This document shows positions 20,757-29,026 of a stretch of DNA of 64,000 nucleotides, piece by piece. This DNA is from Magnetococcales bacterium. Its GTDB lineage: Bacteria; Pseudomonadota; Magnetococcia; Magnetococcales; UBA8363. A program made the position numbers and the translations under genes. Below the pieces are notes generated by a model that saw nothing but the letters and a program-made list of their open reading frames with translations, was not told the DNA's origin and did no database searches. Location: contig JADGCV010000001.1 of assembly GCA_015228815.1 (NCBI GenBank), positions 186,001 through 250,000 on the forward strand, read 5' to 3'. Numbering within the stretch: position 1 is the first letter of the stretch; every line of letters starts with the position of its first letter.

Positions 20757-21992
20757 TCAGACCATCTGCCGCGCCACCCGGATGGTCAGTTCCCCCAACA
20801 GATGGGCATAGCTGCCCAATTCATTGTCATACCAGCCGAAAATGGTCGCCTGGGTCACGGGAACCTCCAGGGTTCCCTCCCCGAGCGCCGCCAGTGCCTC
20901 GGGGGTCAATCCTTCGAGACGCCGTGGATCGATGGTGACAAATCCGGTCCGGGTGTGGGTCTCCCGGGCCTCGATGATCGCCGCCTTTCGTGGATGGCCG
21001 ATGATGTCGGAAGAGACATTCTGCTCCTCGGAGTATTCCAGATAAGCGCCATAAGCCCCCGCGACGGCGCGACGGTAGACTTCGAGAATCTCCTCCCGAT
21101 CGATCGGTCGCTCCTTGCGGTCCGATTGCAGGTTGACGTTGAGAACGATCAACGAACCGGTGGAAGTAGGAATCCGCACCGATTCGGCCATGAAACCGAT
21201 GCGTCCCATCTCGGGAAGGACCAGACGCAGGGTATTGGCGGCCCCGGTTGTGGTGAGAATGATGTTGTTCATGACACCGCGGGTCTTGCGCAGATCGGTC
21301 GCCCCCGCCTTGGGGACCGAATCGAGGACCTTCTGACTTGGGGTCGCGGCATGGACCGTCACCATCGACGCCGACAGAATACCCCCGGCGCCAAAATGAT
21401 CCAGCAGTGGTTTCATCATGAAGGCAAGACACGTCGTCGTGCAGGAAGCGCTCGAAATGATGTTGTGCCGCGCCGGATCGATTTCGGAATCGTTGATGCC
21501 GGTCACCACCGTCACGGCATCCCCGGGCATCGCCGTCCCCTTGTTCTTGATCTTGAAGGGAGCCGACAGGATCACCTTGGCCGCCCCCGCCTCCAGGTGT
21601 CCGCGCAGTGCCCCCCCCGAGGCCGTCGCCGGAGCGGTCGGATCCATGAAGACCCCGGTGCAGTCCACCACCAACTCCACCCCGTGCCGCCGCCATTGGA
21701 CCGCTTGCGGATTGCGATGGCTGCGCAAAAATCGAACCACGACACCATCGATGGTGGCGGTTCCCGCCGCTTCGTCCATGTTCTCGATCACCCGGCCACC
21801 ACCATAACCATGCAGCCAAGCCCCAAGATGGCCATAGGTGCTGTCTTTTTCGAGGGTCTGCAACAAATCTGGCAACCCGAGTCCGACCTCGCGGCCCACG
21901 TTGACGACAATTTCGGAAAAATGTTTCCTGGCGATCTGATTCCACAAGGACAGCTTTCCGATGCGTCCCATTCCATTGATGCCGATCTTCAT
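20757..21992 (-). CDS. Glyceraldehyde-3-phosphate dehydrogenase-like protein (divergent)
   Basis: A 411-residue relative of GAPDH, longer than the usual 330-340. The nucleotide-binding motif is INGMGRIGKLS, the catalytic Cys is in SSASCTTTCLA (about Cys184), and the expected His follows in VTVHAATPSQK. The C-terminal catalytic fold is intact (FGWYDNELGSYAHLLGEL). The Asp that usually selects NAD after beta-2 is not obvious. It starts at MKIGINGMG (21992). Without glycolytic neighbours it may be a classical or a specialised dehydrogenase such as erythrose-4-phosphate type; sequence alone does not settle it. Confidence 0.85.
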   Translation of the reverse strand: MKIGINGMGRIGKLSLWNQIARKHFSEIVVNVGREVGLGLPDLLQTLEKDSTYGHLGAWLHGYGGGRVIENMDEAAGTATIDGVVVRFLRSHRNPQAVQWRRHGVELVVDCTGVFMDPTAPATASGGALRGHLEAGAAKVILSAPFKIKNKGTAMPGDAVTVVTGINDSEIDPARHNIISSASCTTTCLAFMMKPLLDHFGAGGILSASMVTVHAATPSQKVLDSVPKAGATDLRKTRGVMNNIILTTTGAANTLRLVLPEMGRIGFMAESVRIPTSTGSLIVLNVNLQSDRKERPIDREEILEVYRRAVAGAYGAYLEYSEEQNVSSDIIGHPRKAAIIEARETHTRTGFVTIDPRRLEGLTPEALAALGEGTLEVPVTQATIFGWYDNELGSYAHLLGELTIRVARQMV

Positions 21993-22175
21993 CCGCGTTC
22001 TCCTTTGGGATTCCACCAACCGGTCTCTCCCCCGATCATCCCGATTGACCTCGGGGGAATCAAGGGTTTAACATTGGCGACTCGAAAAAATGTCAATACA
22101 ACACATTCAATTCAAGAATAGCACATGTTTTCCACCCTCCCAACCGTCGTATCGTGGCATTGAGGAGAACAAGTC

Positions 22176-22604
22176 ATGTTCAATGAGGTCACCTCCGGAC
22201 GCCATTTCATGGGCCGGGTCAACCATGGCGAGGATCTTCTTGAAGCCCTCAACCGGGCCTGTCGCCAACATGACATCGGACTGGGGATGGTCAGTGCCAT
22301 CGGCGCGGTCCAGAAGGGGGTTCTGGGCTATTACAACCAGGTGCAGCAGGTCTATCACACGATCCACCTTGATCGACCTCTGGAAATCGTTCACCTGTCG
22401 GGAAATATTTCCATGAAGGACAATCAACCGTTCGTCCACGCCCATGCCATTCTTTCGGACGCCTCGGGACAAACCTTTGGTGGTCATCTTTTTCCCGGCA
22501 CCATCGTCTTTGCCTGCGAAACGATCATCCATGCCCTGGATGGAACGGCGCTCCAACGCCAACTGGATCCGACCACGGGGCTTCCTCTGTGGTCTCTTCC
22601 TTAA
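22176..22604 (+). CDS. PPC/DUF296 domain protein
   Basis: A 142-residue single-domain protein of the PPC (DUF296) family, shared by prokaryotes and plant AT-hook proteins. Typical segments are GEDLLEALNRACRQHDIGLG, SAIGAVQKGVLGYY, HLSGNISMKDNQPFVHAHAI and FGGHLFPGTIVFACE. The two His in HAHA and the following GGH match positions that bind metal in solved bacterial members. GAGGAG lies upstream of the ATG. It is divergent from the GAPDH-like gene and convergent with the PPDK-like gene; the repeat at 22606-22661 lies between the two stops. Biochemical role unknown. Confidence 0.88.
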   Translation: MFNEVTSGRHFMGRVNHGEDLLEALNRACRQHDIGLGMVSAIGAVQKGVLGYYNQVQQVYHTIHLDRPLEIVHLSGNISMKDNQPFVHAHAILSDASGQTFGGHLFPGTIVFACETIIHALDGTALQRQLDPTTGLPLWSLP

Positions 22605-22663: not shown

Positions 22664-25600
22664 TTATTTTTCAGAGGGGAACCAGCCCCAGTACAAGAGG
22701 CCCCTCGCGCCGTCCACGCCGATCGGGTCGCCACAACGAATCTCCCGCCCCGTCGCCAAACTTCGCGCCGAATCCCGTCCCACCACAAGATCCTCACACC
22801 CGACAACACACGTCCGGGCCAGCTTGGCGGCAACGATGGCGGCATGACAGGTCTGGCCACCACGACTGGTCAAAAGCCCCTGGGTCATGGAAACCTCGCG
22901 GATGTCCTCGGGAACGGTATCATGACGAATGAGGATCAACGGCTCATCGCCAAACTCGGCGCGCAACCGATGAATCTGATCCAGATTGAACACCGCCCGC
23001 CCACACAACGCCCCACCCGCAACGCCGATTCCCCGGGCGATTCTGCTTTCGCGAAGCTCCGGAGTGTCCTGAAAACGATGGTGGGCCGGAACACGGTTTT
23101 TCGCCGTGACCATGTCGCGGGTCTGCAATAGATACAAATCATCCGCCCGCGGACCCTCGAAGGTGAATTCCAATTCCTGGGGATTGAAACGGCGCTGGTA
23201 GATCAAATGGGTCGCCACATCATGCAACCGGCCATGGACCTCGGGAAAACACCGCTCCAGGGAAATTTCGGGATCCCGACCCTCGTAGTCGCATTGATCC
23301 AGGGAAATCGGTCGGGTGGTCACCAGACCGTTGACGACATCCTCCCCCTGATTGCCGGTGGTGTAGTCGCCCCACAACAACACCCGGTCAAGTTTTCGAT
23401 GGGGATGGGCGGTAAACACCACTCCGGAACCCGCCTGACGGCCCAGGTTGCCAAACACCATCCGCTGAATCACCACCGCCGTCCCCCAGGCATCGGAAAG
23501 ATCCATGATCCGACGATAGCTCCGACTCTTTTCCGACGACCAGGAATCGACCACCTGATCGATGGCGGTCTGAAGCTGTTCCATGGGGTCCTCGGGAATG
23601 ACAATCCCTTGCCCCTTTGCCGCGGCAAGATAATCGAGGGCGAGGTCGCGGATCTGTTCATGACTGAACTCCTGTTTCCAGCGAATCCCCGCCCGGTCCT
23701 TATGGCGATGCATCAGGTCCGTGAAAATGGCCCGGTCCATGTCGCGGGTGGCACACCAGGATTGAACGAAGCGACGATAATTGTCCCAGGCGAAGAAAGG
23801 ATTGCCGGTTTCCCCGGCCAGCGCCGCGACGACAGCCTGGTTGATGCCGACGTTGTGGATGGTCTGCATCATGCCGGGCATGGAGAACAAGGCGCCGCTG
23901 CGCACCGAAACCAACAACGGTCGGACAGGAGCGCCCAACACTCGCCCCGTCTGATTTTCGATGAGCCGCACATGCGCCCGCAAACGATCCATGAAATCCT
24001 TCCGCGCCGGAGGATAGGCACGGATCACCTCACGACAACGGAAGTATTCGGTCGTCAACACCGTTCCCGCCGGGATCGGCAGCCGATCCGCCGCCATGTC
24101 CAACAGGTTGAATCCCTTGGACCCCAAATGCAACAGGTCCATCGTCGGATGCCTGGGATCGGCGAGGGAATGAAACAACCGCCCCGGATGAAAATTCATG
24201 AGCTGGTTGAGCAACGGCAGCGACAGCCGTTCCTCCTGACGCCGCAGCAGATGCAACAGCCGGGTGATGAAGCGATCGAAGGATTGCAACCCAAACGTTT
24301 CCGCCACCAGATCGCGCAAAAAGGATTCGCTGATCCGTTCCATGCCGATGTCGGGATCGTCATCGAGCAGGGAATGATACTTTGGCAACAACGCCTCCCG
24401 GGGGATCATGGGGATGATCGTGGCCAGGGTATCACGATGATGGGTGGTGAAATAGGTGGCGACCAGGTCCTTGATCCCCTCGGCAAACCCCTGGAAGACA
24501 TCGATGTATTGATGAAACGTGAATTCATTGAATTCAAGAAAACGTTCCAGAACGCCGTTGAGGTGGACAAGCCGCCGCGACGACACCCCATCCAGATCGA
24601 GGGCGCGCAGAAAAAAACGGATGATGGCATGGACCCGGAAGAAAGAAGATCGGGTGATGAATTCCTCCCTGATCTCGACCGCCAACGCTTCCAGTTCGAC
24701 CGTGGCCAGGTTTTCCAGGCGAAAACCAAGCGACAGGGCATCGAATTTTTTTTCCGAGTACCGCCCATAGACGGAAGGTATGTCCACGGCAATATGCCGT
24801 TTTTGATAGATTTCCTCGTGCGGAATGAAGGTTTCGTCGCTCAGGATGATCCGGTTGAGCCTTTCCAGGACCGTGAGCAGGGTATCGAGTTTTTCGTCGC
24901 CCGCGATGGGTTCCCCCCGTTGTTGGGCATCGAGAAGACGATCGAGCGGTTCGAGACCGGGAATGCCATCGGCCATCGCCTGCCGCAGCGGTTCCCGAAT
25001 GTTACGAAACCCGAGGTCGTATTTTTGTTCCAACAAATGATAGAGATGAATCACGAGCCAGACCCGTTGGCGTTCCCCGTCGCTGCCCGATTCAAGCGCC
25101 ATGATGCGGCGTTCCGCCTCGGCGGTGGTCCAGGAAAAGGGATCCACCCCTTCCGCCGCCGCCTGGGCGAACAGCGCCTGCGTCACCCGATGCACCTCGT
25201 CGAACAGGGGACCGCCGGTGGTGAGTCCCTGAAAAACCGGATCGCTGACCAACCCTTCCAGATGACCCCGATCACCATCCTGCCAGTAGAGGAGAATTCC
25301 ACGGGCCAGGGCGACGATCCTGTTGGTGCTTTCGACATGGCACTGTTTGCGCAGAAAATGGATCAACGCATCCTTGCGTTGATGCCGTTCGTCAAGTTGA
25401 GTCGAAACCTCGCGCAACAACCCCTCGGCGCCGATTTCGTTGTAGTAGACCGGCAGCAGGCGGCAAAACTGGCGCGCCAGGTTGTAGACAGGACGAATGC
25501 CGCTGTCGAGAAGGCGGGTCACTTCCCTTTGGAACAGATCGGTATCGCGAATCAAAACCCCGGTCAGTTTGAGATTGACGATCAGGGCGGAAAACAGGGT

Positions 25601-26938
25601 GGGACTCCAGGGGGGATTGCGGCGGATCAGGCCAAGCCAGACGCGAATGTTGTGCAGATGGTTGGGGTTGCAGATCGGTTGCCATTCGGCGCTGACGCCG
25701 GTGACCTGACGATACTGAAAACCGAATTCAACGGTCCGTTGCAGAAAAATCTCCACCAGACGGCTGTTGTCGCGGCGGAACACCTCTTCCCCCAGGATTT
25801 CGATGGACTGAAGGGCGGTGTGGGGATAAGAGGCGACGTGTTCCCGGAACAAATGAAAGGTTTCATCGAAGCGCTCCCGCAACTCCTCGAACCCCTGACG
25901 CATCCGGATCAGTTGCACCAGGGCCTGGTTGATGGAGCGCAACGCCTGTTCATGGACCAGGCGCAATCCATCGATGCGCATGATGTGGAAAAGAAAAACG
26001 AGTTTTTTCTTCAGGATCTCCCCGCGATCCTCCCCCGCCCGAGGTTTTGCTTCTCCTGCCTGGTCGATCCGTTCCGCCGCCCGATGATACATGTGGACGA
26101 TTTCCATGTAGTCCGGAAGGGCGAGCAGCGCCGCCAGATTGTCCCTCCCTGCGGGAGCCGACTCCAGTTCCAGGAGACGGCTCTTCAAGACAAGCAGGGC
26201 CTCGGGAACGATCGCCGCCACCGCCTCCCGGGCCTCGGAGGCCCAGAGCGACGGATCGGGAAGGGCAAGCCAGTAATCGAAACTGGCGCCCAGGGAAGCC
26301 CGGGTGAACCCCTTGAGGCTGTCCCAGGGGATGATGTCTTCCGCCACCGCGGCACTTTTTTCGAGCAATGCCAGAAGGGCGCGCCGCAACGAAAACGGCG
26401 ATTGCCCGAGAAGGCGCAGTTGGTCGCGCGAAAGATTCCCCAGTTCGGCGAAGATGTCGCGAAAGGCCTCGCCATGATCACGCAGGCGCTCCACGGGCAT
26501 GAGGTCGATGGCCCGGGCGAGGACCGCCGAGAGCGCCTCCAGGGCCGGACGGGAAAGATCGGTTCGCACCCCTTCGGTGGACGCCTGCAAAAACAGCCGG
26601 CACAACAATCGAAGGCCCTCCGGACCCCGCTCGTGCCGCAGGTGGATCCCCATGTTCTTCAGGGCATACCCTCTCAGTTCCGGCAAAATCAGGGTCCAGT
26701 TGCGAAAGGGATGATTCAGTTCCGACAAAAGGCGGTCCAGGGATTCCTGAATGCCTCGATAGTGCGCAACGACCTCGCGCAAGATTTCGTGTTCCCTGGC
26801 GATGGTCACCGCCGATACCCGAGTCTGTTCCAGATTGGCCGAAAGGGCCTGGGAACGAATCACGGATCGGGAAAAGTCCGGTTCTGGTTCGGTCACTTTT
26901 TTTTCCTTCATTCTTTTTCGAGACACAACCACCACCAT
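22664..26938 (-). CDS. PPDK-related PEP/pyruvate-binding protein with giant N-terminal extension
   Basis: A 1424-residue protein. The C-terminal third resembles pyruvate phosphate dikinase: an ATP-grasp domain (LGSKGFNLLDMAADRLPIPA, SVRSGALFSMPGMMQTIHN, FFAWDNYRRFVQSWC), then a swivelling phosphohistidine domain with TSRGGQTCHAAIVAAKLART (His about 1365). The protein stops about 60 residues after that His, so the PEP/pyruvate TIM barrel is absent. Residues 1 to about 930 are helical with no recognised domain. It may phosphorylate another acceptor, as rifampin phosphotransferases do, or pass phosphate to a partner. A second start, MKEKKVTEPEPD, lies nine codons in. Confidence 0.85.
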   Translation of the reverse strand: MVVVVSRKRMKEKKVTEPEPDFSRSVIRSQALSANLEQTRVSAVTIAREHEILREVVAHYRGIQESLDRLLSELNHPFRNWTLILPELRGYALKNMGIHLRHERGPEGLRLLCRLFLQASTEGVRTDLSRPALEALSAVLARAIDLMPVERLRDHGEAFRDIFAELGNLSRDQLRLLGQSPFSLRRALLALLEKSAAVAEDIIPWDSLKGFTRASLGASFDYWLALPDPSLWASEAREAVAAIVPEALLVLKSRLLELESAPAGRDNLAALLALPDYMEIVHMYHRAAERIDQAGEAKPRAGEDRGEILKKKLVFLFHIMRIDGLRLVHEQALRSINQALVQLIRMRQGFEELRERFDETFHLFREHVASYPHTALQSIEILGEEVFRRDNSRLVEIFLQRTVEFGFQYRQVTGVSAEWQPICNPNHLHNIRVWLGLIRRNPPWSPTLFSALIVNLKLTGVLIRDTDLFQREVTRLLDSGIRPVYNLARQFCRLLPVYYNEIGAEGLLREVSTQLDERHQRKDALIHFLRKQCHVESTNRIVALARGILLYWQDGDRGHLEGLVSDPVFQGLTTGGPLFDEVHRVTQALFAQAAAEGVDPFSWTTAEAERRIMALESGSDGERQRVWLVIHLYHLLEQKYDLGFRNIREPLRQAMADGIPGLEPLDRLLDAQQRGEPIAGDEKLDTLLTVLERLNRIILSDETFIPHEEIYQKRHIAVDIPSVYGRYSEKKFDALSLGFRLENLATVELEALAVEIREEFITRSSFFRVHAIIRFFLRALDLDGVSSRRLVHLNGVLERFLEFNEFTFHQYIDVFQGFAEGIKDLVATYFTTHHRDTLATIIPMIPREALLPKYHSLLDDDPDIGMERISESFLRDLVAETFGLQSFDRFITRLLHLLRRQEERLSLPLLNQLMNFHPGRLFHSLADPRHPTMDLLHLGSKGFNLLDMAADRLPIPAGTVLTTEYFRCREVIRAYPPARKDFMDRLRAHVRLIENQTGRVLGAPVRPLLVSVRSGALFSMPGMMQTIHNVGINQAVVAALAGETGNPFFAWDNYRRFVQSWCATRDMDRAIFTDLMHRHKDRAGIRWKQEFSHEQIRDLALDYLAAAKGQGIVIPEDPMEQLQTAIDQVVDSWSSEKSRSYRRIMDLSDAWGTAVVIQRMVFGNLGRQAGSGVVFTAHPHRKLDRVLLWGDYTTGNQGEDVVNGLVTTRPISLDQCDYEGRDPEISLERCFPEVHGRLHDVATHLIYQRRFNPQELEFTFEGPRADDLYLLQTRDMVTAKNRVPAHHRFQDTPELRESRIARGIGVAGGALCGRAVFNLDQIHRLRAEFGDEPLILIRHDTVPEDIREVSMTQGLLTSRGGQTCHAAIVAAKLARTCVVGCEDLVVGRDSARSLATGREIRCGDPIGVDGARGLLYWGWFPSEK

Positions 26939-27103
26939 GGAACAAAATCGCCACCATGGAAAACGTCATCCCTTGATCAATCCCGTATCGGAGGAACCAT
27001 AATTCATGGACCCGTCCGTCACATTGCAATATGCTTGGCATCGAGAATAATTGAAACGTCACTCCGTTGACAACAACCGCATCCAGCCCTCCACGATTTT
27101 CCC

Positions 27104-27541
27104 ATGCCAAGAATTCGTGTCAGCGAAACCCTGCCCTTTTCCCCAAGGCAGATTTATGATCTCGTCGTGGATGTGGAACGGTATCCACAATTCCTGCCAT
27201 GGTGCGTCAAGTCCAGAACCTGGGATCGGCAACCGCACCAGTTCATGGCGGAACTGACCATCTCCTTCAAGGGGCTCAGGGAAAGTTTCCAGACCCTGGA
27301 TCTGGTGGTTCCCGAAAAAAAAGTCGAGATCAACCTGAAATCGGGACCGTTTCAATATCTGGTCAGCACCTGGCTCTTCACCCCCCAGGAGAAGGGGACG
27401 AAGGTTGACTTCTTCATTGATTTCAAATTCGACAGCCGCATGAAAGAAATGATCATGGGACCCGTTTTTTCTCAAGTATCCAAACAAATGATCGGCGCCT
27501 TCCGCAAACGGGCGCAGGACCTCTATGGACAGGGGGTCTGA
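27104..27541 (+). CDS. COQ10/RatA-type START-domain protein, copy 1
   Basis: A 145-residue polyketide-cyclase/START-fold protein of the COQ10/RatA family, thought to bind ubiquinone or a similar lipid. Hallmarks are LPFSPRQIYDLVVDVERYPQ, FLPWCVKSRTW, the helix-grip strand KVDFFIDFKFDSRMKEMIM and FSQVSKQMIGAFRKRAQDLY. It is followed two bases after its stop by a paralogue, so the pair is almost certainly co-translated. No ratB or smpB is adjacent, which favours the quinone-binding role over RatA. The petABC operon begins 2.3 kb downstream. Confidence 0.9.
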   Translation: MPRIRVSETLPFSPRQIYDLVVDVERYPQFLPWCVKSRTWDRQPHQFMAELTISFKGLRESFQTLDLVVPEKKVEINLKSGPFQYLVSTWLFTPQEKGTKVDFFIDFKFDSRMKEMIMGPVFSQVSKQMIGAFRKRAQDLYGQGV

Positions 27542-27543
27542 TC

Positions 27544-27978
27544 ATGCCGCGGCGCAGTGTCACCATCGATCTTCCCTTTTCGGCGCGGCAGATGTTCGAT
27601 CTGGTCGTGGACATGGACCGTTATCCCGAATTCATCCCCTGGCTCGTCAAATCGCGAAAGTTTGACATCACCGAGACAACATTCAAATCGGAAATGACCT
27701 TCGCCTTCAAGGGATTGCGCGAAACCTTCTTCACCCGCGACGAAATCGATCCCCCTCATCGCATCACCATCACCCATCTTTCGGGACCGTTTTCCCACCT
27801 TGAGAGCGAATGGCGCTTCACCGACCTGGCCACGGGCGGATCCAGGGTGGAATTCTTCATTGATTTCAAGTTCAGCAAAAAGCTGGTCGATCTGGCCATG
27901 GGGCCGGTCTTTGGCAAGGCCTCCTCCTCCATGGTCGAATCCTTCCGTAAACGGGCCGAACAGATTTATGGGGCCTGA
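27544..27978 (+). CDS. COQ10/RatA-type START-domain protein, copy 2
   Basis: A 144-residue paralogue of the preceding gene, sharing LPFSARQMFDLVVDMDRYPE, FIPWLVKSRKF, RVEFFIDFKFSKKLVDLAMG and SFRKRAEQIYG. The start is two bases after the first copy's stop, so this is a tandem duplication kept as a pair. The cavity-lining segments differ (ETTFKSEMTFAFKGLRETF here against QFMAELTISFKGLRESF), which suggests distinct ligands or a heterodimer; that is inference. Confidence 0.9.
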   Translation: MPRRSVTIDLPFSARQMFDLVVDMDRYPEFIPWLVKSRKFDITETTFKSEMTFAFKGLRETFFTRDEIDPPHRITITHLSGPFSHLESEWRFTDLATGGSRVEFFIDFKFSKKLVDLAMGPVFGKASSSMVESFRKRAEQIYGA

Positions 27979-28033: not shown

Positions 28034-29026
28034 ATGAAAAAATTAACAATGATGCTTTTCTCTGTGCTGCCATCATTACTATTGTTGCCAATCGCATCAA
28101 TGGCCGAACCGGTCGCCCGGATCGGCGACTGGACCCTCGACAAGGCAAAGGTGGATGCCATGCTCGCGGGACAGTTCCATGATCTGCGCATGGAGAAGAT
28201 CGAGATGGAAGTCCTCGATCATCTCCTGGAACTCGATGCCAAGGCCAACAATCTTCCCAGGGATCAGGTCGAGGAGAAGATGGCAGCCAAGTTCCTCGTG
28301 ACACTCACCGAGGATCAGGTCAAACAGTTCATGGAGGCCAACAAGGAACGGATTCCCGGCAACGATCCCGCCATCAAGGAAAAAGTCCGCACTTTTCTTG
28401 AAAATCAATCGCTCAAACAGGCCAAGATGAAATATCATGAAAGCCTGGTCGAGAAATACAAAGCGGAAATACTTCTGGAAGAGCCTCGTTATACCGTGAC
28501 GGGTCCCGAGGATTTAAGCCGTGGCCCCGCCACGGCGCCGGTCACCATCATCGAATTTTCCGATTTCGAATGTCCCTATTGCCGCAAGGCCCAGGGGGTG
28601 TTGTCGCAATTGAAGGAAGCCTACGGCGACAAACTGCGTTTTGTCTTCCGTCATTTTCCGCTGCCGTTCCACAAACAGGCCCCAAAGGCGTCGGAGGCGT
28701 CGATGTGCGCCAACGAACAGGAAAAATTCTGGCCCTATCATGACGCCCTTTTCGTCGAATCCCAATCGCTGGCCGAAGACGCCCTCAAGGAACTGGCAAA
28801 GAAGTTGAGCCTGGACATGACAAAGTTTGAAGAATGCTTAAAGAGCGGTCGTCACGCCGCCCGGATCACCGCCGATTCCGCCTCCGGAAAGCAACTGGGA
28901 ATCACCGGAACGCCGACCTTCTTCGTCAACGGCATCAAACTGGTCGGCGCCATACCGCTCAATACGTTCAAGGAAATCATCGATCAGGAAATCAAACCCG
29001 CCCCAGGTCCGGCTGCCGGGAAATGA
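28034..29026 (+). CDS. DsbA-family thiol-disulfide oxidoreductase (exported)
   Basis: A 330-residue periplasmic protein. Signal peptide MKKLTMMLFSVLPSLLLLPI up to ASMAEPVA. The region about 25-150 is helical and peptidyl-prolyl isomerase/SurA-like in composition. The C-terminal thioredoxin fold has FSDFECPYCRKAQGVLSQLK (redox CPYC), and cis-Pro is in GITGTPTFFVNG. This is the layout of BdbD/ScsC-like DsbA proteins with an N-terminal helical domain. GAGGA precedes the ATG. It follows the COQ10 pair and overlaps the convergent trmL by 35 bases. It may mature periplasmic proteins such as cytochrome c1; this is inferred from context only. Confidence 0.9.
   Translation: MKKLTMMLFSVLPSLLLLPIASMAEPVARIGDWTLDKAKVDAMLAGQFHDLRMEKIEMEVLDHLLELDAKANNLPRDQVEEKMAAKFLVTLTEDQVKQFMEANKERIPGNDPAIKEKVRTFLENQSLKQAKMKYHESLVEKYKAEILLEEPRYTVTGPEDLSRGPATAPVTIIEFSDFECPYCRKAQGVLSQLKEAYGDKLRFVFRHFPLPFHKQAPKASEASMCANEQEKFWPYHDALFVESQSLAEDALKELAKKLSLDMTKFEECLKSGRHAARITADSASGKQLGITGTPTFFVNGIKLVGAIPLNTFKEIIDQEIKPAPGPAAGK

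Follow-up and report, generated by a model that had tools for sequence, protein, structure and literature searches.

The ATP-grasp and swivelling phosphohistidine domains of the pyruvate phosphate dikinase (PPDK)/phosphoenolpyruvate (PEP) synthase superfamily have been reused repeatedly, on antibiotics, on phenols and in regulation of the methylcitrate cycle. According to the available parts of the published accounts, a domain other than the PEP/pyruvate barrel binds the small molecule in rifampin phosphotransferase (PMC4844700) and in HpeHI (PMC12167813), and in the former this acceptor domain lies between the ATP-grasp and the His domain. PPDKs without a barrel are also a known kind. One of them is VadK of M. 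tuberculosis. As described in the accessible portion of its report, this truncated PPDK phosphorylates itself on His422 and acts as a brake on the methylcitrate cycle, whose synthase and dehydratase it binds; its authors propose competition for binding, and that portion shows no phospho-acceptor (PMC13400623). Here we describe a barrel-less PPDK-like protein of 1424 aa encoded in a stretch of 64,000 nucleotides (the window; contig JADGCV010000001.1, positions 186,001 to 250,000) from a 4.2-Mb Magnetococcales genome, labelled G000. In it the reused pair is joined to a family-less partner region of 935 residues, the core of which is under tighter conservation than the catalytic domains, and a whole order has retained this arrangement.

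Catalytic domains without a PEP barrel

The only Pfam families matched by the protein were PPDK_N (PF01326, 93 bits against a cut-off of 27) and PEP-utilizers (PF00391, 61 bits), with their best stretches at residues 980-1217 and 1331-1413, so that both the ATP-grasp and the phosphohistidine domain of PPDK are recognised. The PPDK equivalog model TIGR01828 matched two stretches, the best being residues 938-1275, and its score of 349.5 lies under its own cut-off of 843.45, which sets the protein apart from PPDK equivalogs; models for PEP synthase scored far lower (PRK06464, 73; TIGR01418, 60). NF004531, a 534-position PPDK model to which VadK presumably belongs, gave 281 for the whole protein and 286 for the 489-aa catalytic module, below its cut-off of 456. 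Residues 938-1420 align to residues 18-510 of PPDKs in the PDB with 246 bits.

These matches bear out an earlier reading made from the letters of the window alone (the sequence-only reading), which had described the two domains as PPDK-type and intact and the C-terminal barrel as gone: the barrel family PF02896 has no match in the 1424-aa protein, which ends after the His domain. The phosphohistidine had also been placed correctly, at His1365. This residue is invariant in all 24 aligned homologues, as are K941, R1013, E1255, E1257, Q1272, R1274 and T1363. The PPDK counterparts of these positions, from K941 to H1365, are what we take to be K22, R92, D321, E323, Q335, R337, T453 and H455, with D321 presumably replaced by Glu. 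It is confirmed that the ATP-grasp and swivel domains are intact and conserved and that the barrel is absent. With no permuted barrel present either (see below), the phosphate must go elsewhere.

Table 1. Features of the barrel-less PPDK-like gene and its neighbours (window positions)
Feature	Position	Strand	Remarks
Barrel-less PPDK-type protein	22664..26938	-	1424 aa, ATG start
N-terminal helical region, residues 1-935	24134..26938	-	No known family (Pfam, PDB, AF2, structure comparison)
Most conserved N-terminal core, residues 376-550	25289..25813	-	63/175 positions invariant, 24 sequences
Second conserved core, residues 701-745, QKRHIAVDIPSVYGRY region	24704..24838	-	19/45 invariant; two predicted strands
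PPDK-type ATP-grasp domain, residues 938-1275	23114..24127	-	Pfam, TIGR01828, PDB alignment
Phosphohistidine (swivel) domain, residues 1303-1420	22679..23032	-	Pfam, PDB alignment
Codon of predicted phospho-acceptor His1365	22844..22846	-	Motif GGQTCHAA and alignment
PCC-domain (PF03479) gene	22176..22604	+	Between the PPDK-like gene and gap2; not obviously part of the system
gap2, divergent type I GAPDH, order-specific	20757..22019	-	420 aa; downstream, same strand as the PPDK-like gene

The helical N-terminal region and its conserved core

Residues 1-935 matched no Pfam family and no PDB sequence. Across residues 29-935 of the 24 homologues no consistent Pfam family appeared and the window member had no match at all; at E <= 10, 12 families were listed, each in one or two members, and the best (INT1_R3, E = 0.0025, a single member) was taken as chance. 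A PDB sequence search with the same residues gave nothing below E 0.6. AlphaFold2 (AF2) models built from the 24-row alignment are almost all helix, both for residues 29-935 (pLDDT 81.8, pTM 0.66) and for residues 378-935 (pLDDT 81.0, pTM 0.79), and their only two strands of at least 3 residues lie within residues 701-745. The sequence-only reading, which had described a long helical N-terminus of no known family and proposed a profile search of it, holds on this point. The contrary case that it had named, a PEP barrel in permuted order, was looked for in residues 1-935 and is ruled out, because the region is predicted to be almost wholly helical and lacks a PF02896 match.

The complete N-terminal model weakly resembles solenoids of the CRM1/importin type (best Foldseek E 3.9e-4, TM 0.12; best structural Z 9.8 over 186 residues, root-mean-square deviation 7.0 Å), a likeness that in a helical model may reflect a common helix arrangement only. 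The core model 378-935 had no clear match: Foldseek gave nothing at E <= 0.001, and the best Z was 7.5. The rifampin-binding domain and barrels were not among the matches listed for the two models, which excludes nothing.

Conservation is unevenly spread. Among the 24 sequences the invariant share reaches 36% in residues 376-550 and 42% in residues 701-745, above the 28% of the ATP-grasp domain (96/340) and the 27% of the His domain (32/118), and the remaining N-terminal stretches have 5-10%; the first 375 residues, which are solenoid-like, are poorly conserved. Polar or charged residues account for 42 of the 82 invariant core positions (31 in the first core and 11 in the second, Tyr and Trp counted), and 23 are Asp, Glu, His, Lys or Arg. 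Since its invariance exceeds that of the catalytic domains and many of its invariant residues are charged, the N-terminal core resembles an active or binding site, and by its conservation it looks like a functional site and not a linker. In four pairs, each half of the gene had a ratio of nonsynonymous to synonymous substitution rates (dN/dS) of 0.06-0.21, with dS of at least 1 in three of the pairs; judged by codon changes, the gene is under purifying selection. The N-terminal 14-28 residues are not conserved among homologues, so the exact start is uncertain. An open frame of 1287 aa overlaps the gene on the plus strand (23207-27070); given the dN/dS of the minus-strand frame it is unsupported as a gene, and it is probably an effect of codon use.

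Distribution

The PPDK-like gene is a lineage-wide core gene of Magnetococcales. A profile of residues 29-935 found the N-terminal region in 45 of 48 genomes of the order and in none of 350 further genomes drawn from the phylum, and a single-sequence search with residues 1-913 gave 45/48 and 0/251. One match spans nearly the whole profile in 41 of the 45 genomes and the matches are fragmentary in G093, G137, G141 and G165. No match was found in G022, where the sequence beside gap2 was not covered and absence cannot be judged, in G125, which is 75% complete, and in G010, which is 99% complete and has neither the region nor gap2. A contig scan that took its short query peptides from the window protein alone, and so reaches close relatives only, returned eight relatives: six from Magnetococcales, matched over the full length, and two Chloroflexota PPDKs, matched over the catalytic half. 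Plasmid records held no copy matching the N-terminus, viral contigs searched with a profile of residues 378-935 gave none, and literature searches found no paper on the barrel-less 1424-aa protein. Among 50,697 phage records, 55 carry a PPDK-type ATP-grasp/His region, and Vibrio phages account for 32 of the 55.

Linkage to glyceraldehyde-3-phosphate dehydrogenase genes

Neighbourhoods were compared in 24 loci, 23 of which are testable for the glyceraldehyde-3-phosphate dehydrogenase (GAPDH) gene gap2 (L033 ends too early). Of the 23, 18 have this gene downstream in the same orientation, at a spacing of -3 to 963 bases, so the search for conserved neighbours proposed in the sequence-only reading did yield one; it does not follow the PPDK-like gene in L024, L025, L028, L030 and L039. 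A conventional GAPDH gene is found upstream in 7/24 loci (L029, L030, L032, L033, L035, L036 and L039), and a GAPDH of either kind is adjacent in 21/24. The upstream flank of L037 and L038 is wholly different, containing sucA, sucB and lpd (named by eye from the L038 translations and the clusters common to both loci), and gap2 is still downstream.

The gap2 proteins (411-427 aa) retain the catalytic Cys and His and carry ~30 additional residues near the C-terminus; the window member has an unusual C-terminal insertion and reads WYDNELGSY in place of WYDNEWGY. At E <= 1e-60 gap2 was found in 35 of 39 genomes of the order and in 0 of 111 others. Replacement of phosphoglycerate kinase (PGK) or GAPDH by the PPDK-like system is ruled out, with PGK in 43/48 and the GAPDH family in 48/48 genomes of the order. 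On the other side of the PPDK-like gene, and divergent from it, is a tandem pair of RatA-like genes (27104-27978, plus strand; under the cut-off of the model), followed by a DsbA-like gene (28034-29026); many of the 24 loci have similar genes at the corresponding position.

Relation to complete and other barrel-less PPDKs

The G000 genome also has a complete PPDK of 888 aa, on a different contig from the barrel-less gene, and PF02896 detected barrel-bearing proteins in 42/48 genomes of the order. In G000 this PPDK was the only match, so no stand-alone barrel is present and a split PPDK is ruled out for this genome. Recent truncation of the resident PPDK is likewise ruled out, as the Magnetococcales catalytic modules form their own clade (support 100/100), deeply divided from PPDKs, including eight from the order. 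The first tree contained all 19 Magnetococcales rows, and 7 of these 19 were dropped before the second was built. A branch with support of 96/88 has all 19 barrel-bearing rows on the same side, and the seven barrel-less rows that are not from Magnetococcales split into two groups. L083 and L084, which are long barrel-less rows, have an unsure position, hence we do not claim that barrel-less forms arose only once, and long branches make deeper inference unsafe.

Across 200 genomes of the phylum, PPDK-type modules outside the order occupy frames of ~890-990 aa, with three exceptions: 557 aa in G199, 410 aa in G184 and 1059 aa in G032, the last being an open frame that encloses a shorter gene. 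The proteins of G199 and G032 lack the barrel, and each is encoded after a gene of 659-667 aa. Five of 99 matching plasmid records yielded further barrel-less PPDKs: two whose partner carries a DUF47-family or phosphate-transport-regulator annotation, and three from actinobacteria that lack such a partner. In proteobacterial loci a barrel-less PPDK directly follows a 631-667-aa gene (L059:5998-9658, L060:5706-9265, L081:2056-5524 and L082:1960-5527); the PPDKs of L059, L081 and L082 have 526-545 aa, and their partners are DUF47/PhoU-like by weak match or annotation. A literature search found no paper on this two-gene system. Another protein of G000, with 1315 aa (L062:6965-10912, contig 6), shows a weak PPDK_N match and a His-domain-like motif, GSTMDHYAILFRE, with a long family-less region behind it, and its neighbour is a fused AAT-NUDIX protein; it is possibly another rearranged dikinase. 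With hhalign, the N-terminus of the window protein showed no homology to this protein or to the DUF47-like partner of L059.

Possible functions

We favour, with a probability of roughly 0.45, a dikinase of the PPDK superfamily whose helical region supplies the acceptor or partner site and which is linked to triose-phosphate metabolism. ATP, with Pi as in PPDK, would phosphorylate His1365 with release of AMP and PPi, and the swivel domain would then turn toward the helical N-terminus, whose charged and conserved core, made up of 376-550 and 701-745, may hold the acceptor. That acceptor would more likely be a small metabolite, from the triose-phosphate node or a gap2-coupled reaction, than a protein side chain, and its identity is a guess. 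The persistence of gap2 where the upstream flank is wholly different supports the metabolic link. A more specific version, a Magnetococcia-specific class in which a helical acceptor domain with its active site in 376-550 and 701-745 replaces the barrel and phosphorylates a substrate new to dikinases at the triose-phosphate node, together with the order-specific GAPDH, is less likely than not. Several points weigh against the favoured dikinase. Neither an acceptor, nor a ligand, nor a fold match turned up for the N-terminus; the putative acceptor site is read from conservation, and protein-protein interfaces, too, can have conserved charged surfaces. Because both genes occur throughout the order, finding them in the same genomes adds no independent evidence and only adjacency speaks for a link, and in three loci (L024, L025 and L028) a GAPDH is adjacent on neither side. 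G000 has a conventional GAPDH and PGK elsewhere, so gap2 is not its sole GAPDH. Moreover, VadK, the barrel-less PPDK that has been studied best, has enzymes as its targets in the available account (PMC13400623).

An acceptor site in the helical core is nevertheless favoured over a regulatory histidine kinase of the VadK type, a plausible but less probable arrangement in which ATP would phosphorylate His1365 and the N-terminus would dock on an enzyme of metabolism, with the linked GAPDH as the likeliest partner, tuning triose-phosphate flux to the energy state. VadK itself, with the same two domains, His autophosphorylation, binding of methylcitrate enzymes and a gene close to those of their cycle, is the precedent, as far as its report is available (PMC13400623); GAPDH genes are the persistent neighbours, and alpha-solenoids, which the N-terminal region resembles, are a common protein-binding shape. 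However, the solenoid matches are weak and unspecific, they involve the poorly conserved first 375 residues, the conserved core modelled without these has no clear match, and the three loci lacking an adjacent GAPDH count here too. A part in ordinary PEP/pyruvate interconversion, either by using the barrel of the complete resident PPDK in trans or by regulating that PPDK, would suit the presence of such enzymes in G000 and most of the order, but it is improbable, given the different contigs, the separate deep clades of the catalytic modules and a conserved N-terminal core that it leaves unexplained. Slightly less probable still is a catalytic half that serves merely as an ATP or energy sensor switching the helical part, with no true phospho-acceptor: switches are often carried by helical scaffold domains and no acceptor was found, but the full set of catalytic residues, His1365 included, is kept in 24/24 homologues. 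Once found, the acceptor of the favoured dikinase, or the partner of a VadK-like kinase, would be a new phosphorylated metabolite or a new control of GAPDH in magnetotactic bacteria.

Comparison with known systems

The sequence-only reading had allowed that the protein might belong to a known class, and had compared it with rifampin phosphotransferase, the acceptor of the window protein perhaps being bound by the N-terminal region. A substrate or partner site in the N-terminus fits, because conservation along the protein is highest there; the analogy itself is one of two live options, because VadK acts on enzymes and not on a small molecule. Like the window protein, VadK (Rv1127c) has a PPDK-type ATP-grasp and phosphohistidine domain without a barrel, in a genome without a stand-alone barrel, and its gene lies near central-metabolism genes, so the known class does apply to the catalytic half. 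It does not extend to the helical region: in the accessible text VadK is short (~50 kDa), without the N-terminal region that occupies 935 aa here, and its neighbours and partners are methylcitrate-cycle enzymes, whereas the neighbour here is a GAPDH (PMC13400623).

Rifampin phosphotransferase and HpeHI/PpsAB share with the window protein an ATP-grasp, a swivelling His domain and an acceptor domain that is not a barrel, but, in the available parts of their accounts, this domain is much smaller than the N-terminus described here and lies in mid-protein or in a second protein (PMC4844700, PMC12167813). Their ATP-grasp is PEP-synthase-like, that of the window protein PPDK-like. The order found here, helical region, ATP-grasp, His domain, is not that of rifampin phosphotransferase, and the model for that enzyme, NF041857, scored 25.3 against a cut-off of 999. 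The DUF47/PhoU-linked PPDKs of L059, L060, L081 and L082 have the same domain pair and a large partner, but the partner is encoded by a separate preceding gene, they belong to a separate clade, and the L059 partner is not detectably related to the N-terminus. Canonical PPDK has the ATP-grasp and His domain, and differs in its barrel, the lack of an additional N-terminus and its separate clade. The window protein has the kind of catalytic pair common to VadK and to rifampin phosphotransferase/HpeHI, and the exact architecture of neither.

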